From Cyanothece sp. BG0011 (GTDB taxonomy: Bacteria > Cyanobacteriota > Cyanobacteriia > Cyanobacteriales > Microcystaceae), in assembly GCF_003013815.1 (NCBI RefSeq), contig NZ_PRLH01000093.1, positions 1 through 64,000 of the forward strand: a stretch of DNA of 64,000 bases, in the 5' to 3' direction. Numbering within the stretch: position 1 is the first letter of the stretch; every line of letters begins with the position of its first letter. A model generated the notes under the pieces. The model worked only from the letters and a program-made list of their open reading frames with translations. It searched no databases and was not told the origin of the DNA. Made by a program: the position numbers and the translations under genes. Positions 13,916-22,229 of the stretch are shown piece after piece.

Positions 13916-14479
13916 ATGATTAAAACTTCTTCTAAATCTCTTAGCTTAAAGGAATTTTTGGCATTACCAGAAACAAAACCAGCCAAGGAATATATTAACG
14001 GAAAAATTGTTAAAAAGCCAATGCCAAAAGGGAAACATAGTACCATCCAAACTGAACTTTCTACCGCTATTAATGTTACTTTAAAAACTCAAAAAATAGC
14101 TCGTGCTTTTTCCGAATTAAGATGTACTTTTGGCGATCGCTCTATTGTTCCTGATATCACTATTTTAAAATGGGATCATATTCCTCGTGATGATAATGGT
14201 GAAATTGCAGACTCATTTTGTCTTGCACCAGACTGGGTAATTGAGATTTTATCCCCTGAACAAAGTCAAACAAAAGTTGTCAAAAATATTTTATATTGTT
14301 TAGATCATGGAACAGAAATAGGATGGTTAATTGATCCTAATGATAAATCTGTAGTCGTTTATTTTTCTCAACAAAAACCTATGTGTTTTGAAGCAAAAAA
14401 AGATAATTTACCTGTTCCTAATTTTGCCAATTCTTTTCAATTAACGATAGAAGAATTATTTGTATGGTTATTAGAATAA
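13916..14479 (+). CDS. Uma2 family (DUF820) PD-(D/E)XK endonuclease-like protein
   Basis: A 187-residue protein of a family that is greatly expanded in cyanobacterial genomes. It has the N-terminal LKEFLALPETKPAKEYINGKI, the central VPDITIL aspartate, PDWVIEILSPEQS with the catalytic-type Glu, and a GWLIDP strand, the usual order of the restriction-endonuclease-like fold. Family members are predicted nucleases, but the biological role is unknown and no partner gene is adjacent. The spacer before it (13715-13915) is AT-rich with a short direct repeat of AGTGAAC near 13750. Confidence 0.85.
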   Translation: MIKTSSKSLSLKEFLALPETKPAKEYINGKIVKKPMPKGKHSTIQTELSTAINVTLKTQKIARAFSELRCTFGDRSIVPDITILKWDHIPRDDNGEIADSFCLAPDWVIEILSPEQSQTKVVKNILYCLDHGTEIGWLIDPNDKSVVVYFSQQKPMCFEAKKDNLPVPNFANSFQLTIEELFVWLLE

Positions 14480-14495
14480 TCAACTAAGATAAAAT

Positions 14496-16685
14496 CTATT
14501 TGTTATTCATCGATTCTATCCAACTATCATTAAAAATCCCTTCATAAATGGGATTATGAACCTTTAAAAATTGATCATCTTTAATAATGAGTCCTGATAA
14601 AATAAGTTCTCTAATTTCTTCATCATCACTGATAGGATAATTAGGTTGATGTAGTATTGTCTGATAGCGTTTTAAGAGTCGTTTTTTATCAAGAGAACTT
14701 TTCAAAATGCGATCGCGAATGGTTCTCAAATGTTCCGGTTCGTCTTGACATTCCCAATTTTCTATAATCTGCGATCGCACTAATTCTCTAATCCATTCAT
14801 CTTCTTGATCTTCAGGAATTTCCCTGGGAGAATTATGAATTAATTGACAAATTTTTTGTGTTAAAAAGGGTTGCCCATTAGTCCAATATAAAACAGCTTT
14901 CAACACAGCTTGAGGATGATTAACTTTAAATTTCAATCCCTCTAATAAAGGTTGTGCTTCATGAAACTGAAACCCTTGTAAATGAATAACTTGACCAATA
15001 TTGAAGGGAGTTCGTTGTTTATCTTCTAATAATTGAGAAGGACTAGCAACCCCTAATAAAGCAAAAGTAAGCCGTTTATAATCAGGATTATCAGCCCTTT
15101 TATTATAACAACTTCTCAAGAAAATAAAAAAGTCATCCATAGGAAAATCTAAACTTAATACACTATCAATTTCGTCAACAAAAACAACAATATTATGAGA
15201 AAGATTCGGCAAAATAATCTGATAAATCAATTCTCCTAACCCCTGTACAGGTGATAAAAAGTCATGTTGTTTTAACCAGTCTCTAATATTCACTTTATCT
15301 AATAAATTTAACCCACTTAATAGGATATAAATAAATCCTGCATACCATTGTTTTATTGTTAATTTTCGATTGCCAATTTCTGATAAATCCACAGCAACAC
15401 AAGCAAAATTTTCTGCTTGTAATCGTTTCATAATTTGAACTCGAAGGCTCGATTTTCCCATTTGTCTTGCATTTAAAATATAGCAAAATTCGGCTGCTTT
15501 TAAGGCTTTATAGACATAGCGATCAGCGGAACGAACAACATAACTAGGAGCATCTATCGGTAAACTTCCACCCACTTGATAATCATAGCTTTTTTCATTT
15601 TCAGCACTCCTGAGTAAAGCATTTTCTATTATTAAATCGGCTTGAGTTGCTTTGAGAATTTTTAAGGTTGCTGTTAGTTCTTCGGTTCTTTCAAGAACTT
15701 TTTTTTCTAGGGTAGCATTATAATGAGATAGTTGCTCTTTAGTTTGTTGTAAATCAAGATTTTTTTTCGCTAATTCTTCAGTAAAATGAATGCGATCTGC
15801 CTCTGCTTTTTTTCTTTGTGTAATATCTTGAAATGCCGCAATAACATAAGAAATATTTCCTTTTTCATCATAAATTGGTTGGGCAGAAATTTCTAGAGGA
15901 ATATGCTGTTCCTTATGGCGAATTTCTACATCTGACACCGTGGTGCTTTCCCCTTGTAAGGCGCGTCTAACTGGTAATTTATCAAGCGGATATTTTTGCC
16001 CAGTCTGTAAACAATAGGGTTGATAAATCTTAGTCAAATCATCAAAATTAACTTCGCTCAAAAGTTCTTCTCCGAAAATTTTTTTAGCTTGATTGTTAGC
16101 ATAATAGGGGTATCGAGTCTTAGCATTAATAATAAAAATACCAACGGGAATATCGGCTAAAAATTGGGTTAATTGCTTTTCATTATTGCGTAACGCTTCT
16201 TCAACTTTTTTACGCTTTTCAATTTCTTGTTTTAATTTATTTAAAGACTTTTCTTGTGCTTCTCTGGCTGCTTTTTCCTGGGCGAAAGCCCTTTTAATTT
16301 GTTGAACATGATTTAAGGTTTTAGTGGTCGTAATTTCTAAATCCTTAAAATCAATCGGTTTTGTTAAAAAGTCAAACGCCCCGCAATTCATAGCTGAGCG
16401 AATATTATCAAGATCCCCATAAGCAGATATAATAATCGCTTTAATAATGGGATCAATTTCTTGAATTTTACTTAATAGGGTGAGTCCATCCATTTCAGGC
16501 ATATAAATATCCGTCAAAACCATATCAATATTGCCATAGACTCGGATATACTCTAACGCTTCTAGTCCATTATGAGCAAAGACAAAATCAAGTTCTTTTT
16601 GTCTTATTTTTTTTCTAAATTTTTGTCTAATTAGTCGTTCTAAATCTAATTCATCATCAACGACTAAAATTTTCGGGATTTCCAT
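14496..16685 (-). CDS. response receiver - PAS - AAA-like ATPase signalling protein
   Basis: A 729-residue multidomain protein. Residues 4-122 are a CheY-like receiver with the acidic pair VVDDE, phospho-acceptor Asp about 59 (VLTDIYMPEMDG) and Lys about 109 (LTKPID). A short coiled coil leads to a PAS/PAC sensor (about 170-292, ending AAFQDITQRKKAEADR), then a second coiled coil (about 297-365). The C-terminal part (about 370-700) is an AAA-like P-loop domain with NARQMGKSS as Walker A and VVFVDEID as Walker B. There is no histidine kinase or DNA-binding output. The ATPase domain resembles the cyanobacterial AAA_35 type often found fused to sensors. The upstream receiver gene ends 16 bp before this ATG, so the two are probably one operon. 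The target is unknown. Confidence 0.85.
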   Translation of the reverse strand: MEIPKILVVDDELDLERLIRQKFRKKIRQKELDFVFAHNGLEALEYIRVYGNIDMVLTDIYMPEMDGLTLLSKIQEIDPIIKAIIISAYGDLDNIRSAMNCGAFDFLTKPIDFKDLEITTTKTLNHVQQIKRAFAQEKAAREAQEKSLNKLKQEIEKRKKVEEALRNNEKQLTQFLADIPVGIFIINAKTRYPYYANNQAKKIFGEELLSEVNFDDLTKIYQPYCLQTGQKYPLDKLPVRRALQGESTTVSDVEIRHKEQHIPLEISAQPIYDEKGNISYVIAAFQDITQRKKAEADRIHFTEELAKKNLDLQQTKEQLSHYNATLEKKVLERTEELTATLKILKATQADLIIENALLRSAENEKSYDYQVGGSLPIDAPSYVVRSADRYVYKALKAAEFCYILNARQMGKSSLRVQIMKRLQAENFACVAVDLSEIGNRKLTIKQWYAGFIYILLSGLNLLDKVNIRDWLKQHDFLSPVQGLGELIYQIILPNLSHNIVVFVDEIDSVLSLDFPMDDFFIFLRSCYNKRADNPDYKRLTFALLGVASPSQLLEDKQRTPFNIGQVIHLQGFQFHEAQPLLEGLKFKVNHPQAVLKAVLYWTNGQPFLTQKICQLIHNSPREIPEDQEDEWIRELVRSQIIENWECQDEPEHLRTIRDRILKSSLDKKRLLKRYQTILHQPNYPISDDEEIRELILSGLIIKDDQFLKVHNPIYEGIFNDSWIESMNNK

Positions 16686-16701
16686 ACAACTCACATTTTA
16701 G

Positions 16702-17070
16702 TTAAATTAATTCACTAATTTTTTCTTTAAGATGTTCAAATTCAATGGGCTTAGTTAGATAATCATCGGCTCCATATTGTATGGCTGTTTGATAATTATA
16801 ATCATCTCCATAGGCTGTGATCATAAATACCTTGATATCGGGATAATTATCTTTAATGATTTTCAGCAATTCTAAGCCATTCATTCCTGGCATATTAATA
16901 TCAGCCAAAATCAGAATCAAATGATTTTCTTGTTTGTCTATACAATTTAAGGCATCCTCAGCCGAAAAAACAAAAGAAAATTCTACCTTTTTTTGTCGAA
17001 TTTCTTTTCTAAACTTTTGTTTAAACAAGAGGGTGATATCTTGTTCATCATCCACAACCATTATATTCAT
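16702..17070 (-). CDS. single-domain response regulator (CheY-like)
   Basis: A 122-residue standalone receiver with VVDDE near the N-terminus, phospho-acceptor Asp about 57 (LILADINMPG), Thr in MITAYG and Lys in LTKPIE. The alpha1/beta2 region KFRKEIRQKKVEFSF is nearly the same as KFRKKIRQKELDFVF in the receiver of the downstream gene, so the two receivers are close paralogs, probably from a local duplication. With no output domain it should act through protein contact or phosphotransfer, and the downstream ATPase protein is the obvious partner. ATG at 17070 is chosen over a TTG one codon upstream. Confidence 0.9.
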   Translation of the reverse strand: MNIMVVDDEQDITLLFKQKFRKEIRQKKVEFSFVFSAEDALNCIDKQENHLILILADINMPGMNGLELLKIIKDNYPDIKVFMITAYGDDYNYQTAIQYGADDYLTKPIEFEHLKEKISELI

Positions 17071-17257
17071 CAAAACAATACCTTAGAATTTTTTTGATTC
17101 AGTAAAATTGGTGAACATCTGAGACAGAATTGCTTCTATTTTAGCAGTGTATTCTCTTAAACCTTCCTTAATTGTCCATTTATTCAGTTTAGTTCACCCA
17201 AAGTTCTCAGACCCTGGTAGGATAAATCCTGACAGCTACTATAAAAATATAATTAAG

Positions 17258-18421
17258 ATGACACAAACAGATGGCATTGCCCCTCACGGCGGTCAATTAA
17301 TTAATCGTATTGCGACCACCGCAGAAAAAGAGGAATTTTTAGCCCAAGCCGACAAACTCCCCAGAATTACCCTAGATAAACGGGCCACTTCTGACCTGGT
17401 TATGATTGCCATTGGTGGGTTTAGCCCTCTTAAAGGCTTTATGGAAAGGGCCGACTATGAAACCGTTGTCGAAGATATGCACTTAAGCAATGGGGTTCCT
17501 TGGTCAATTCCGGTTACCCTATCAGTGAGTGAAGAAGTAGCCGACTCTCTCCAAGAAGGGAACTGGGTGAGATTAGACGATCCCAATGGTAACTTTATCG
17601 GGGTGCTAGAACTGACCCAAAAGTATCACTATAATAAAACCCACGAAGCTGTCAACGTCTATAGGACTGACGAAAGCAAACATCCAGGGGTGAAAGTTGT
17701 TTACGATCAAGGGGCCGTTAATTTAGCTGGTCCTGTGTGGTTATTACAACGGGATGAACACCCCCTATTCCCCAAATATCAAATTGATCCGGCTGAGTCT
17801 CGCAAACTCTTTAAAGAAAGAGGTTGGGCCACTGTGGTTGGGTTTCAAACCCGTAACCCCATCCACCGCGCCCACGAATATATTCAAAAATGCGCCCTAG
17901 AAGTGGTAGATGGCCTGTTCTTACATCCCCTCGTCGGTGCCACCAAAAGCGACGACATTCCGGCCGATGTACGGATGCGTTGTTATGAAATTATGATGGA
18001 TAACTATTTTCCTCAAGATCGGGTAATTCTCGCCATCAACCCTTCTGCCATGCGCTATGCAGGCCCGAGAGAAGCCATTTTTCATGCCATCGTTCGCAAA
18101 AATTATGGCTGTACCCACTTTATTGTCGGACGAGATCACGCAGGGGTAGGGGATTATTACGGCACCTACGATGCTCAACATATTTTTGATGAATTTGATC
18201 CCGACGCATTGGGTATCGTTCCCATGAAATTTGAACACGCTTTTTACTGTAAGCGAACCGGACAAATGGCCACCACCAAAACCAGTCCCAGTAGCAAAGA
18301 AGAACGCATTCACCTCTCAGGGACAAAAGTTCGAGAAATGCTCAGACGGGGAGAAATGCCACCCCCTCAGTTTTCTCGTCCAGAAGTGGCAGCTGAATTA
18401 ATTAAAGCCATGCAAAATTAA
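17258..18421 (+). CDS. sat: sulfate adenylyltransferase (ATP sulfurylase)
   Basis: Makes adenosine 5'-phosphosulfate from ATP and sulfate, the first step of sulfate assimilation. The 387-residue single-chain enzyme shows the ATP-binding [11 protein letters not shown] loop, the [12 protein letters not shown] segment and the C-terminal [20 protein letters not shown] region, all diagnostic of homo-oligomeric ATP sulfurylases. The reading frame is open 37 codons further upstream, but ATG at 17258 gives the normal length. No APS kinase domain is fused. Upstream it is divergent from the receiver gene pair. A GC-rich inverted repeat follows 28 bp after the stop. Confidence 0.97.
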
Positions 18422-18477: not shown

Positions 18478-18647
18478 TGTTCAACAGAGACCAAAAACAG
18501 AGAACCACTCCCTACTCCATTGTTGTCATGGTTGTGATTCTTCGATATACTCCCTGTAAGCAACAAATATGTAATAAAATAAATGAAGCCTATACATATT
18601 AGCGCGAGTGTAATAGCGGTATCTTCCCAAGAGAGCAAACAGAAACC

Positions 18648-20864
18648 ATGAAATGGGATCGGCGGACTTTTTTACAGACCTTACTCACCTGGGGGGTCGC
18701 TCAAGAAAGCCTGACATGGCTAAATTCTAATCGGCAACTGAAAAAATATTATCAAACCCTAGCAGAACCAACCCATCGTAAACTGGCCTTGTTGGTGGGA
18801 ATTAACGATTATGGAAAAGGATATAGCCTAAAAGGCTGTGTCACCGATGTTGAACGACAAAAAGACTTACTGATTCATCGGTTCGGGTTTAATCCTCAAG
18901 ATATTCTCACCTTGACCGATAAAGAAGCAACCCGTCAAGGCATCGAAACCGCCTTTATCGAACATTTAGTTCAACAAGCTAAAGCAGGGGATGTGGTGAT
19001 CTTTCACTTTAGCGGTTATGGAAATTACGTTAATATTCCTCCTGATATTGTCCCCACCCTGACCAAAGGCCAACTACCAGGGATAATTGCTCAAGATGGC
19101 ATTACCTTAACCCAAGGCAATCCTAGCACCAATAATATTCTTGAAGATACCCTACGGTTATTAGGGCGATCGCTTTTGACCGATAAAGTGACCATGGTTC
19201 TCGATACCAGTTATCACAGTAGTGGACAAACGGTTCAAGGGCATCTTCGGGTGCGATCGTTTCCTTATCCGACCGATACGATAGAACGAGACGAATTTAC
19301 CTTTCAAGCAGACCTCAAACAAAAACTCCCCAAAAGCAAAGCCGGAAGCAGCGCCGGAATCATTCTCTCGGCCGCCAAGTCCGAACAAATGGCCACAGAA
19401 ATTAAAGGTAACGGTTTTAGTGCAGGACTCTTTACCTATGCCTTAACTCAACATCTATGGTCTACGGTTCCTGCCAGTCGAGTTAATATAACCCTCAACA
19501 AAACCACAGAACAAATACTCCCCATCATGGGAGGACAACAAGAACCGCAACAAGAAAACAGTCCTTCTCAACCCCTGTTTACCTATTATCTCCTTCCTCC
19601 CGTATCTCAAGGATCAGAAGCTTTCATTAATAGTGTGGAAGACTCAGAAAGAGCGGACATTACTTTAACTGGTTTTCCAGCCAATATTGTCCGATATTAC
19701 GGTGTTAACTCCATCTTTTATCCTGTAACTAATCAGTCGTCATCCGTTCCTCTACAATTGCGTTCTCGCAATGGACTAAAAGCTAAAGTTCGTCGACTCT
19801 CTTCTCAACCAGGAGACAATGAATCTTTAGCCGTAGGACAATTATTACAAGAATCGGTTCGTTGTTTACCCAAGACTATTGGTTTAACCGTTGCCTTAGA
19901 CCCCCAATTACAACGAATTGAGCGAGTGGATGCCACCAGCGCCTTTTCAGCCATTGATATTGTCTCCGATGTGATGACAGAAGGAGAACAACCCATCGAT
20001 TGTATTTTAGGGTTACGTTCCTCTTTCTCGACTCCCTCCTCCCAACCCCAAGAAACAGGAACTTACTCCCTGTTCCTTCCAGGGGGAGTCCCCCTTCCCA
20101 ATACCCTTGGTAAATCCGGAGAAGCCATAAAATCCGCTATTGAACGATTACGTCCCACCCTAGAAAAACTTCTAACGATGAAACTTTGGGGCTTAACCCT
20201 TAATGAAGGCTCCTCTCAAGTCCCTTGGCGCGTCACCCTCGAAGGTCTTGATCCCAAACCCTACGGCATCGTACAAAGGCAAACCACTCGCATCAAAACC
20301 CAGACCCCACAAGCAGAAACTGATAAGAATAAACCCATAACGCCAGAGTCTAATAATATTCCAGGGTTACCCAAAGTCCCCCGAGGAACTCGGTTACGTT
20401 ATCGGTTGGAAAATTTAGGAGAAACGCCCCTGTATTACCTTGTATTAGGGATTAATAGTAGTGGCAAAGCCATCGCTTATGTTCCTCCTTATGAAGAAGA
20501 CATTGAACCCAGTGAAGATGAACAACGATTTATTGAACCCGGAAGGAACGATTTTGTCCCCGCCACTTCCACCGGACTCACCTGGACAACCTCCAGTACA
20601 AAAGGATGGGAGCATATTTTGGCGATCGCAGCCATTGCCCCTTTTCAGAAAACCTTAGAAGCCCTGAAAAAAATCTCCGAGTTTAAAACCGATAAAGATC
20701 AAATTCTCACCCTCAAAAATCCCTTGGAGGTATCTAAAGCACTGTTAGAAGATTTAGAAACCGCCAGCCAGCAAACTAATTCCCTGGTTGAAGGGAACCC
20801 TGATAGTTATATTCTCGATGTTAAAGCTTGGTCAACCTTAAGCTTTATGTACCAAGTGATTTAG
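18648..20864 (+). CDS. caspase-family protein with Tyr/Ser in place of the His/Cys dyad (pseudo-orthocaspase)
   Basis: A 738-residue protein. The N-terminus MKWDRRTFLQTLLTWG looks like a twin-arginine (Tat) export signal. Residues about 44-310 have the caspase/metacaspase p20 fold: KLALLVGINDY, then FHFSGYGN where the catalytic His of HxSGHG is Tyr124, then VLDTSYHSSG where the catalytic Cys of D-x-C is Ser188. Both catalytic positions are therefore lost. Y/S pseudo-variants of orthocaspases have been described in cyanobacteria. The C-terminal region (about 570-720, PRGTRLRYRLEN and YLVLGINSSGKAIAYVPP) resembles DUF4384, frequent in these proteins. It is unlikely to be a protease; a binding or scaffold role in the periplasm is inference. 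It stands alone as a transcription unit. Confidence 0.87.
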   Translation: MKWDRRTFLQTLLTWGVAQESLTWLNSNRQLKKYYQTLAEPTHRKLALLVGINDYGKGYSLKGCVTDVERQKDLLIHRFGFNPQDILTLTDKEATRQGIETAFIEHLVQQAKAGDVVIFHFSGYGNYVNIPPDIVPTLTKGQLPGIIAQDGITLTQGNPSTNNILEDTLRLLGRSLLTDKVTMVLDTSYHSSGQTVQGHLRVRSFPYPTDTIERDEFTFQADLKQKLPKSKAGSSAGIILSAAKSEQMATEIKGNGFSAGLFTYALTQHLWSTVPASRVNITLNKTTEQILPIMGGQQEPQQENSPSQPLFTYYLLPPVSQGSEAFINSVEDSERADITLTGFPANIVRYYGVNSIFYPVTNQSSSVPLQLRSRNGLKAKVRRLSSQPGDNESLAVGQLLQESVRCLPKTIGLTVALDPQLQRIERVDATSAFSAIDIVSDVMTEGEQPIDCILGLRSSFSTPSSQPQETGTYSLFLPGGVPLPNTLGKSGEAIKSAIERLRPTLEKLLTMKLWGLTLNEGSSQVPWRVTLEGLDPKPYGIVQRQTTRIKTQTPQAETDKNKPITPESNNIPGLPKVPRGTRLRYRLENLGETPLYYLVLGINSSGKAIAYVPPYEEDIEPSEDEQRFIEPGRNDFVPATSTGLTWTTSSTKGWEHILAIAAIAPFQKTLEALKKISEFKTDKDQILTLKNPLEVSKALLEDLETASQQTNSLVEGNPDSYILDVKAWSTLSFMYQVI

Positions 20865-20899: not shown

Positions 20900-20939
20900 T
20901 GTCCCTTGGTGTCCGCTAGGGGACTATTTTTATTTTATT
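20900..20939 (+). terminator. stem-loop with T-rich tail, copy 1 of a duplicated element
   Basis: GTCCC at 20901-20905 pairs with GGGAC at 20920-20924, followed by TATTTTTATTTTAT. It lies just after the caspase-like gene and can act as its terminator. An almost identical element lies at 21314-21353, on the other side of the 106-residue gene: the first 12 and last 20 bases match exactly and only the loop differs. Confidence 0.6.
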
Positions 20940-21540: not shown

Positions 21541-21891
21541 CTAAACGTTTGATAACTGATGTTCTCGTTCAGAACTTGAATTTATTTTCACTTCAATATT
21601 TACGTTTAGTTCTTTACACAAAATAGAATAAATAGCGGTTAAATTATCCATTGTCGGATTACCTTTTGCTGATAGCATTCGATGAAGACTTTTACTAGGT
21701 TTAGATGTTTGATTTGCTAGTTCTTCAAATCCTATTGTTGAATTCACCAAGTCTCTCAAGATAAGTCTAGCTGTCTCTGGTTCCCCATTAAGAAAAAGAG
21801 ATGTAGCTTCGTCTAGCAAAGCTTTAGCCAGTTCAGCATCTTGTTTGACTCTCTTATTGATTGTTTCAATATAATCTCTAGTTAAGTCCAT
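21541..21891 (-). CDS. HigA-like antitoxin, helix-turn-helix addiction module antidote
   Basis: A 116-residue protein with a helix-turn-helix at about 51-95 (IGFEELANQTSKPSKSLHRML, then NPTMDNLTAIYSIL), the pattern of the putative addiction-module antidote family (TIGR02684-like). The N-terminal 45 residues are an extra helical region (DAELAKALLDEATSLFLNG) not seen in the shortest family members; similar extensions occur in cyanobacterial versions. It follows the toxin gene by 5 bp on the same strand, giving the toxin-first order of HigBA systems. It probably neutralises the toxin and represses the operon promoter. Confidence 0.85.
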   Translation of the reverse strand: MDLTRDYIETINKRVKQDAELAKALLDEATSLFLNGEPETARLILRDLVNSTIGFEELANQTSKPSKSLHRMLSAKGNPTMDNLTAIYSILCKELNVNIEVKINSSSEREHQLSNV

Positions 21892-21896
21892 AATAA

Positions 21897-22229
21897 TTAA
21901 GTCTTTTTTTTCTCCTGTTGTTTTCGGTTTTTGTACTCTTGGTAAAACTTTTTGGCTTTTTTAATATCAGATGATTGATTCTTTTTTGTTCCACCACCCA
22001 ATAAAATTATTAGTTGTTTCCCTTCCATGACTAAATAAATTCGATATCCAGGCCCCCAGTTAATTCTGTATTCCCCAATCCCATTAATCCACTTAATATT
22101 TGACGTATTACCTAACTCTAAACGAGACAAGGCAACGGTTACTTTGGCCGCACCTTGAACATCAAGACTGTTAAACCATTTCTCGTAGGGACTTGAGCCA
22201 TCTTCTCTAATATATTCTTGAACTTTCAT
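21897..22229 (-). CDS. RelE/ParE-superfamily toxin, HigB-like
   Basis: A 110-residue protein matching the phage-derived Gp49-like/HigB toxin type: KVQEYIREDGSSPYEKWFNSL at the N-terminus, the basic core EYRINWGPGYRIYLVMEG, and KQLIILLGGGTKKNQSSDIKKAKKF near the end. In this family the strand with GPGYRIY carries the RNase active-site region. The predicted activity is mRNA cleavage at the ribosome. It is the first gene of a two-gene operon with the antitoxin and lies downstream of rpsJ, with a hairpin between them at 22274-22300. The highly basic tail (KNRKQQEKKKT) is a little longer than usual. Confidence 0.88.
   Translation of the reverse strand: MKVQEYIREDGSSPYEKWFNSLDVQGAAKVTVALSRLELGNTSNIKWINGIGEYRINWGPGYRIYLVMEGKQLIILLGGGTKKNQSSDIKKAKKFYQEYKNRKQQEKKKT

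Follow-up and report, generated by a model that had tools for sequence, protein, structure and literature searches.

The window, by which we mean the whole stretch of 64,000 nucleotides that was analysed, carries a complete gene for a pseudo-orthocaspase with a Tyr-Ser (YS) dyad and, directly ahead of it on the same strand, the ATP sulfurylase gene sat, with a gap of 226 bp between the two (Table 1). Consensus scans of the window placed a promoter-like site within this gap, listed no terminator-like site there, and gave a terminator-like stem 3' of the pseudo-orthocaspase gene. Such promoter-like sites numbered 10 in the region against 7.4 expected. The closest named relatives of the pseudo-orthocaspase come from Unicellular cyanobacterium SU3 (88%) and Crocosphaera spp. 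(71-81%), which marks the window as DNA of a Crocosphaera-like cyanobacterium.

Table 1. Features of the sat and pseudo-orthocaspase region, in window coordinates.
Feature	Position	Strand	Basis or remark
sat (ATP sulfurylase, 387 aa from start used)	17258..18421	+	PF01747, E 2.6e-100
Promoter-like site TTGTCA-17-TATACT (10/12), between sat and the pseudo-orthocaspase gene	18523..18551	+	consensus scan only
YS pseudo-orthocaspase gene	18648..20864	+	complete ATG ORF, 738 aa plus stop
Tat-like leader, aa 1-39	18648..18764	+	RR at 5-6 (18660-18665), TFLQ, weakly hydrophobic stretch, T37-L38-A39, putative signal-peptidase cut next
Caspase fold, aa 41-315 (p20 plus p10-like half)	18768..19592	+	VIA-align to metacaspase-9 9n3e
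C64 to D67, putative S1 pocket	18837..18848	+	mapped here to TbMC2 Cys92 and Asp95
Tyr124, catalytic His position	19017..19019	+	family profile alignment to metacaspases
D186, putative S1 pocket	19203..19205	+	mapped here to TbMC2 Asp211
Ser188, catalytic Cys position	19209..19211	+	family profile alignment to metacaspases
C-terminal module, aa 319-738	19602..20861	+	barrel ~aa 322-405, RIERVDATSA region, DUF4384-like aa 580-662
Terminator-like stem (10 pairs) then T run, 3' of gene	20901..20924	+	consensus scan only

The protein matches PF00656 at residues 44-307 (E 4e-17, 63.1 bits against a Pfam cut-off of 21.4), which is the p20 caspase domain of YS pseudo-orthocaspases. No separate Pfam p10 match was found in it; the caspase fold match nonetheless reaches residue 315. 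An NCBIfam scan returned a sub-threshold match only (23.7 of 140 bits). Structural modelling, which the earlier note had proposed as a check, gave an AlphaFold2 model (mean pLDDT 82.3, pTM 0.84) with a caspase fold, as residues 41-315 aligned to metacaspase-9 (9n3e) with a VIA-align Z of 25.9 and an rmsd of 3.3 over 253 aligned residues. The best Foldseek E value was 3.2e-14. The likeness to metacaspases (Arabidopsis MC9 and MC4, yeast Mca1-type; Z up to 25.9) is limited to these residues, and their His-Cys (HC) dyad is absent from the window protein. In the leader the pLDDT of the model falls below 50 over residues 1-3, 15-26 and 31-39.

The C-terminal module was modelled with a pLDDT of 85.7. 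The DUF4384-like character that the earlier note had assigned to it holds for the relatives, 56 of the 59 members of alignment A2 matching DUF4384 at E<=0.01, but the window protein itself reaches just 21.3 bits for PF14326 (aa 580-662), under the curated cut-off of 27 bits. Foldseek with the C-terminal half alone gave no match at E<=0.001. The barrel of about 70 residues that opens this half resembles those found N-terminally in HerA and in ATP-synthase beta subunits (Z ~9); against ATP-synthase-type N-terminal barrels, residues ~322-405 gave a Z of 9.6 and an rmsd of 2.1-2.2 over 72-73 residues. The rest beyond the barrel is unmatched, which is no proof of a new fold.

In the family profile, FHFSGYG pairs with FHYSGHG of the metacaspases and LDTS with FDSC of metacaspase-1 (7qp0). 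Tyr124 therefore lies at the catalytic His site and Ser188 at the catalytic Cys site, so that the reading of the protein as a caspase homolog with these residues at the catalytic positions is borne out by both the PF00656 match and the profile. Y124/S188 thus stand in place of the HC dyad of active metacaspases. Another His/Cys active-site pair, which according to the earlier note would have overturned this assignment, was ruled out: H120 is common to pseudo members (203/205) and leader-bearing HC members (31/31), and C64 falls at a pocket position.

The residues of the S1 pocket have been named for TbMC2 (Klemencic et al. 2019, PMC6426788). By the mapping made in the present analysis, C64, D67 and D186 are taken as the positions of TbMC2 Cys92, Asp95 and Asp211, and the two putative pocket Asp residues are present in the window protein as in YS pseudo-orthocaspases. 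Conservation was counted over sequences with more than 150 aligned residues (205 pseudo, 31 HC with leader and 38 of the 68 HC without leader), the leader-less non-HC sequences (three YN, two YC) being left out. D67, D186, S122, G123 and G125 each occur in 205/205 pseudo members, and C64 in 195/205. Position 124 is Y in 180, F in 12, C in 8, L in 4 and H in 1 of them, and position 188 is S in 186, G in 17 and C in 2. The dyad drifts after its loss, with both Asp residues of the Arg/Lys pocket staying invariant.

The N-terminus of the window protein, MKWDRRTFLQ, carries a twin Arg at residues 5-6, to which the earlier note had drawn attention, and the pair is kept in 130/130 distinct relatives, whose starts were chosen with an RR rule that no row failed. 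The comparison with other Y/S orthocaspases advised there thus gave a common RR as well as the invariant pocket Asp. An alignment of 59 rows shows no variation at R5, R6, F8 or A39, the +2 residue after RR is F, L or W in relatives, and the conserved A39 fits the -1 position of a signal-peptidase site. Strict RRxFL was found within the first 35 residues of 110 of the 131 family proteins (a set that includes the window gene twice) compared with 0/911 neighbouring ORFs, and a looser RR pattern in 131/131 compared with 10/911. The enrichment is far beyond chance. An AxA-type cut site is present in 119/131 family proteins, the window protein having TLA at 37-39. Its leader is among the weakest of the family in hydrophobicity, with a best 15-residue mean of 0.67 (family median 1.37, lowest 0.51). 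An N-terminal twin-arginine consensus conserved across the relatives is what is expected of a Tat substrate, and TatC is encoded in the window genome.

An RR...AxA leader of about 30 residues was described for YS pseudo-orthocaspases in 2019, motif prediction software making no assignment for this region (PMC6426788). As to the compartment, A0101 of Synechococcus 7002, a homolog of sll0148, is in the 11th row among 123 PsbU-APEX2-enriched proteins (enrichment 7.64), and neither of the cytoplasmic controls yielded it (Dahlgren et al. 2020, PMC7880944); this labelling reports proximity, was done in two replicates and concerns a genus other than the window's. The same source refers to earlier thylakoid-membrane fraction data for sll0148. 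A0101 is probably a YS protein, as PCC 7002 appears in the Klemencic table with one orthocaspase gene, Tyr-Ser. In the main text of a 2025 spatial proteomics paper, as far as it was accessible, neither A0101 nor a caspase is mentioned. Since lumenal labelling enriches A0101, the thylakoid lumen appears more likely than the periplasm for the window protein, whose own export is predicted. The location outside the cytoplasm put forward by the earlier note therefore agrees with the label on the homolog, with the lumen as its more likely form.

The window protein belongs to the already described cyanobacterial YS pseudo-orthocaspases, and a pseudo-caspase with a TAT-like leader has not been new since 2019. 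YS forms, with N-terminal RR and A-x-A, were found in nearly all cyanobacteria, and a photosynthetic or thylakoid role was proposed for them (Klemencic et al. 2019, PMC6426788). The study reports that they are regulated by light and that Gloeobacter lacks them; they are also treated in a 2021 survey (PMC8283722). With that description the window protein has in common the PF00656 p20, the Tyr-Ser dyad, the pocket Asp, the leader and the long C-terminus, and the description offers no distinguishing difference. SyOC (sll0148) of Synechocystis 6803 (Lema et al. 2021, PMC7889975) and A0101 (PMC7880944), here likened by description, fall into the same caspase-domain pseudo-orthocaspase group with a reported thylakoid location; the dyad of SyOC is YG, unlike that of the window protein. 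The SyOC knock-out grew normally without stress, had normal Fv/Fm without H2O2 and tolerated H2O2 better (PMC7889975). Four points have no counterpart in the published descriptions as far as these were consulted, namely RR in all relatives and in an HC sister group, a drifting dyad beside a fixed pocket, retention without intact PSII core genes and the pairing with sat.

A p20 set was assembled from loci similar to the window protein together with 110 among the PF00656 matches listed, over 60 genomes of the order. It comprised 329 p20 ORFs, 316 of them unique and 309 with both dyad columns. YS was the commonest pair (163), followed by HC (99), YG (15), FS (12) and CS (8), the rarer ones being YC (4), LS (3), YN (3), LG (1) and HG (1). 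The RR leader is present in every YS, YG, FS, CS, LS, LG and HG member (one YS by eye), in 31/99 HC and in 2/4 YC members, and absent from the other two YC and the three YN. L201 (MKRREFWQR) escaped the Tat pattern and was scored as RR by eye. The leader has been said to separate YS from presumably active forms (PMC6426788); as a mark of pseudo forms only, it is contradicted by the 31 HC sequences bearing it.

The 14 HC paralog loci L120-L130 and L132-L134 encode a window-type RR leader about 31-36 residues ahead of the p20 start, and the long ones align along most of the window protein with 31-36% identity. They are unlike the window gene in their intact HC dyad, in having no sat neighbour (0/14) and in the same-strand TPR proteins beside 9/14 of them. 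A CHAT domain was detected in three of four such TPR neighbours scanned (E<=1e-66), and an exported caspase and the adjacent caspase-like CHAT protein may form a functional pair.

Phylogenies were computed from this set. With IQ-TREE (LG+C20 PMSF, 68 rows, dyad columns removed), whose bootstrap was not fully settled, the 36 pseudo rows form one clade (100/100), and the leader-bearing group is split from the leader-less HC rows with 99/99. A quick rerun on 62 rows with the longest branches removed gave 98 for the pseudo clade and 99 for the leader-bearing split. FastTree on 238 p20 rows likewise put the leader-bearing rows together (200/200, support 0.94), but the pseudo rows did not form one clade, the best holding 152/171 with the leader-bearing HC group (29/29, support 1.0) nested inside. 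We trust the IQ-TREE result over FastTree on the pseudo clade, yet the conflict stands. The best-modelled tree would thus have an exported HC orthocaspase lose its dyad once, after export had evolved.

The distribution of the gene was surveyed in a phylum sample of 386 genomes, 125 of which match the window protein query (P0001) at 1e-20 and 183 of which match D1/D2; in the window's own family 49/50 genomes match the query at 1e-5. Family code f25 contributes 57 D1-bearing genomes, none of which matches at 1e-20, and the 20 of them tested by profile gave no match either. With genomes of 1.6-3.7 Mb, f25 appears to be picocyanobacterium-like, and picocyanobacteria have thylakoids. Because such genomes have PSII and thylakoids without the gene, the pseudo-orthocaspase is not needed for every thylakoid. 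Among the 126 D1/D2-matching genomes outside f25, where G147 and G268 count only through broken fragments, 122 match the query at 1e-20 and three more by profile, G374 being the one that does not.

Six symbiont genomes among these 49 matching members of the window's family lack intact PSII core genes. Two UCYN-A-like genomes (G416, G417; 1.4-1.5 Mb) have no D1/D2 match, with PsaA/B intact. The diatom-endosymbiont-like G444 (2.5 Mb) has no match to the D1/D2, CP43/47-type or PsaA/B families, and in the similar G147, G183 and G268 these are absent or are short or stop-broken fragments; no intact photosystem core gene was found in the four. A PF00421 gene resembling one of the window genome is open over 347 codons in G417 and reduced to a broken piece in G416; it probably encodes an accessory antenna protein and is not a PSII core gene. 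In all six, the pseudo-orthocaspase is full length with RR and YS kept, and TatC is present. Its dN/dS is 0.15 in the UCYN-A-like pair and 0.13-0.16 in diatom-endosymbiont pairs, compared with 0.125-0.148 in Crocosphaera-like pairs; free-living relatives from the endosymbionts' genus code have 0.18-0.25 (locus L210 of the named set yielded no ORF under the rule applied). In three symbiont pairs the caspase and C-terminal parts are each constrained (0.11-0.16), and the leader gave 0.30-1.17, its 40 codons being too short for a steady estimate.

Purifying selection and retention without intact PSII core genes are, like the dyad replacement and the conservation of RR and pocket, results computed here. 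The replaced dyad, the low dN/dS of the Crocosphaera-like pairs, the conserved RR and TatC fit the proposal of the earlier note that a pseudo-caspase under selection would be exported in a folded state. As the gene is intact and constrained in six PSII-less symbionts and has no 1e-20 match in the 57 PSII-bearing f25 genomes, a role in PSII is argued against. Diatom endosymbionts have lost photosystems yet keep thylakoid membranes, for which respiration was proposed as the reason (PMC11070190, PMC5638926). The pseudo-orthocaspase tracks thylakoids better than PSII.

The pairing with sat is widespread. The sat gene immediately precedes the pseudo-orthocaspase gene, in the same orientation, in 102/134 pseudo loci, spanning 16/27 family codes and 53/71 genera, and in 60/75 pseudo loci of named genomes; the two sets, which overlap and are not independent, consist of loci with at least 800 bp upstream after removal of three duplicates. 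Neither contained a locus with sat downstream or inverted. In 11/27 family codes the pair was not found within the examined flank. The gap has a median of 154 bp over 165 loci and is 60 bp or less in 18 of them. At five distinct loci, all from genus code g3, the stop codon of sat overlaps the gene start (ATGA), which suggests that the two genes may there lie on one transcript. Among neighbour clusters sat accounts for 120/164 loci, the next commonest, a phosphorylase superfamily protein (PF01048), for 25/164. Both UCYN-A-like genomes have the pair; in the four diatom-endosymbiont-like genomes sat and the pseudo-orthocaspase gene are both kept but lie far from each other. A search of one open-access collection found no published report of the pair, PMC4933709 naming ATP sulfurylase only in its reference list.

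Two further observations concern these flanks and sat itself. A tRNA 2-thiolation-type protein (PF03054) is encoded upstream in 23/164 and a DUF6930/DUF7309 protein in 24/164 pseudo loci (e.g. L206, L152). The three f25 genomes compared (G107, G139, G175), from the lineage without the pseudo-orthocaspase, have a clearly more distant ATP sulfurylase (E ~1e-70 to 1e-72, against 1e-97 or better in 12 others).

The explanation we favour, with about even confidence, is a scaffold role in the lumen, in which the protein would bind basic peptide segments and cut nothing. For the window protein we infer export and location, leader cleavage, peptide binding and contact with partners. The protein would fold in the cytoplasm and then be translocated by Tat, the leader probably being cut after A39, and the mature form would be a pseudo-protease that works in the thylakoid lumen without proteolysis. 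Since its caspase half would still offer an acidic S1 pocket to Arg or Lys side chains and has no nucleophile, basic segments of lumenal or membrane proteins might be held, shielded or sorted, uncut, and the barrel/DUF4384 C-terminal half would contact partners. Such a task would be tied to thylakoid membranes generally, respiratory as well as photosynthetic, with photosystem II dispensable. In favour of a lumenal pseudo-protease we count RR in 130/130 relatives, the invariant A39, TatC, the lumenal label on A0101, D67 and D186 in 205/205 pseudo members, the low dN/dS and the caspase fold (Z 25.9); against it we count the weak hydrophobic stretch, proximity data that come from another genus, f25 without the gene and a knock-out that is normal without H2O2.

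Against this scaffold stands the photosynthesis- or photosystem II-specific factor of Klemencic 2019, which would account for light regulation and absence in Gloeobacter (PMC6426788) and for the close tracking of D1/D2 genomes outside f25 (122/126 at 1e-20 plus three by profile). We consider it improbable, as the gene is intact, with no relaxation of selection, in both UCYN-A-like genomes and the four that resemble diatom endosymbionts, has no 1e-20 match in 57/57 D1-bearing f25 genomes (nor a profile match in the 20 tested), and can be deleted in Synechocystis with normal growth and Fv/Fm without H2O2 (PMC7889975). The sat pair raises another candidate, a periplasmic or lumenal regulator linked to sulfur or redox metabolism, and its breadth (102/134 loci, 16/27 family codes, both UCYN-A-like genomes), its lead over the next commonest neighbour cluster (120/164 against 25/164) and the ATGA overlap in five g3 loci all speak for it. 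This remains an unlikely explanation in view of the separated genes in the four diatom-endosymbiont-like genomes, the 11/27 family codes where no pair was found within the examined flank and the mostly long gaps (18/165 at 60 bp or less). Moreover, ATP sulfurylase is, as far as known, a cytosolic enzyme.

That 31/99 HC sequences, as a sister group, carry a Tat-like leader of the same kind brings to mind a decoy or activator of an exported HC paralog, like cFLIP and caspase-8, and the 14 genomes with the HC loci each also had a pseudo locus. We give this little credence: P0001 has a single match at 1e-5 in the window genome, as in each of the six PSII-less symbionts, so that the pseudo form is kept even where a close HC partner is missing, and the HC loci have other neighbours (sat 0/14). 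If the protein were not exported at all and the RR helix had another cytoplasmic role, the weak hydrophobic stretch and the leader left unassigned by motif prediction software (PMC6426788) would be explained; quite improbable as this is, it has to contend with RR in 130/130 relatives, where position +2 is F, L or W, with the conserved A39 and with a lumen-enriched homolog (PMC7880944). A hidden catalyst using Ser188 (or Tyr124) as nucleophile seems very improbable in spite of YS being the commonest pair (163/309), for position 188 is Gly in 17/205 pseudo members, position 124 may be Y, F, C, L or H, and the homolog studied in Synechocystis is YG (PMC7889975).

Extending the favoured scaffold reading, one may picture a photosystem-independent lumen pseudo-protease required by respiratory and photosynthetic thylakoids alike, perhaps ordering lumenal or membrane proteins under oxygen or redox stress, kept in the UCYN-A organelle genome, co-regulated with sulfate assimilation via sat and derived in one step from an exported active orthocaspase. 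As a whole this combination is possible at best and rather doubtful.

Retention in symbionts and absence in picocyanobacterium-like genomes separate dead caspases from PSII and point to a more general, testable thylakoid role. From the HC sister group, which shares the leader, one can begin to trace how a protease that was exported became non-cutting, and the sat pair offers a handle on the regulation of the pseudo-orthocaspase.

Other genes of the window and its genome were recorded as well. On the minus strand, positions 21541-22229 hold a toxin-antitoxin-like pair, in which a 110-aa Gp49/HigB-like protein (PF05973, 23.5 bits, cut-off 23.9) accompanies a 116-aa ORF with no Pfam match that looks antitoxin-like by eye. 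Two tandem response regulators lie at 14496-17073 (-), one of 732 aa with a receiver-PAS-AAA_35 combination that looks unusual, and a Uma2-family protein (PF05685, E 2.9e-33) at 13916-14479 (+). Elsewhere in the window genome (L004, contig C141), an HC caspase-like gene is split over two frames of 148 and 142 codons; its first part is identical to the paralog L002 of the same genome over the 120 residues compared, and it may be a broken copy or an assembly error.
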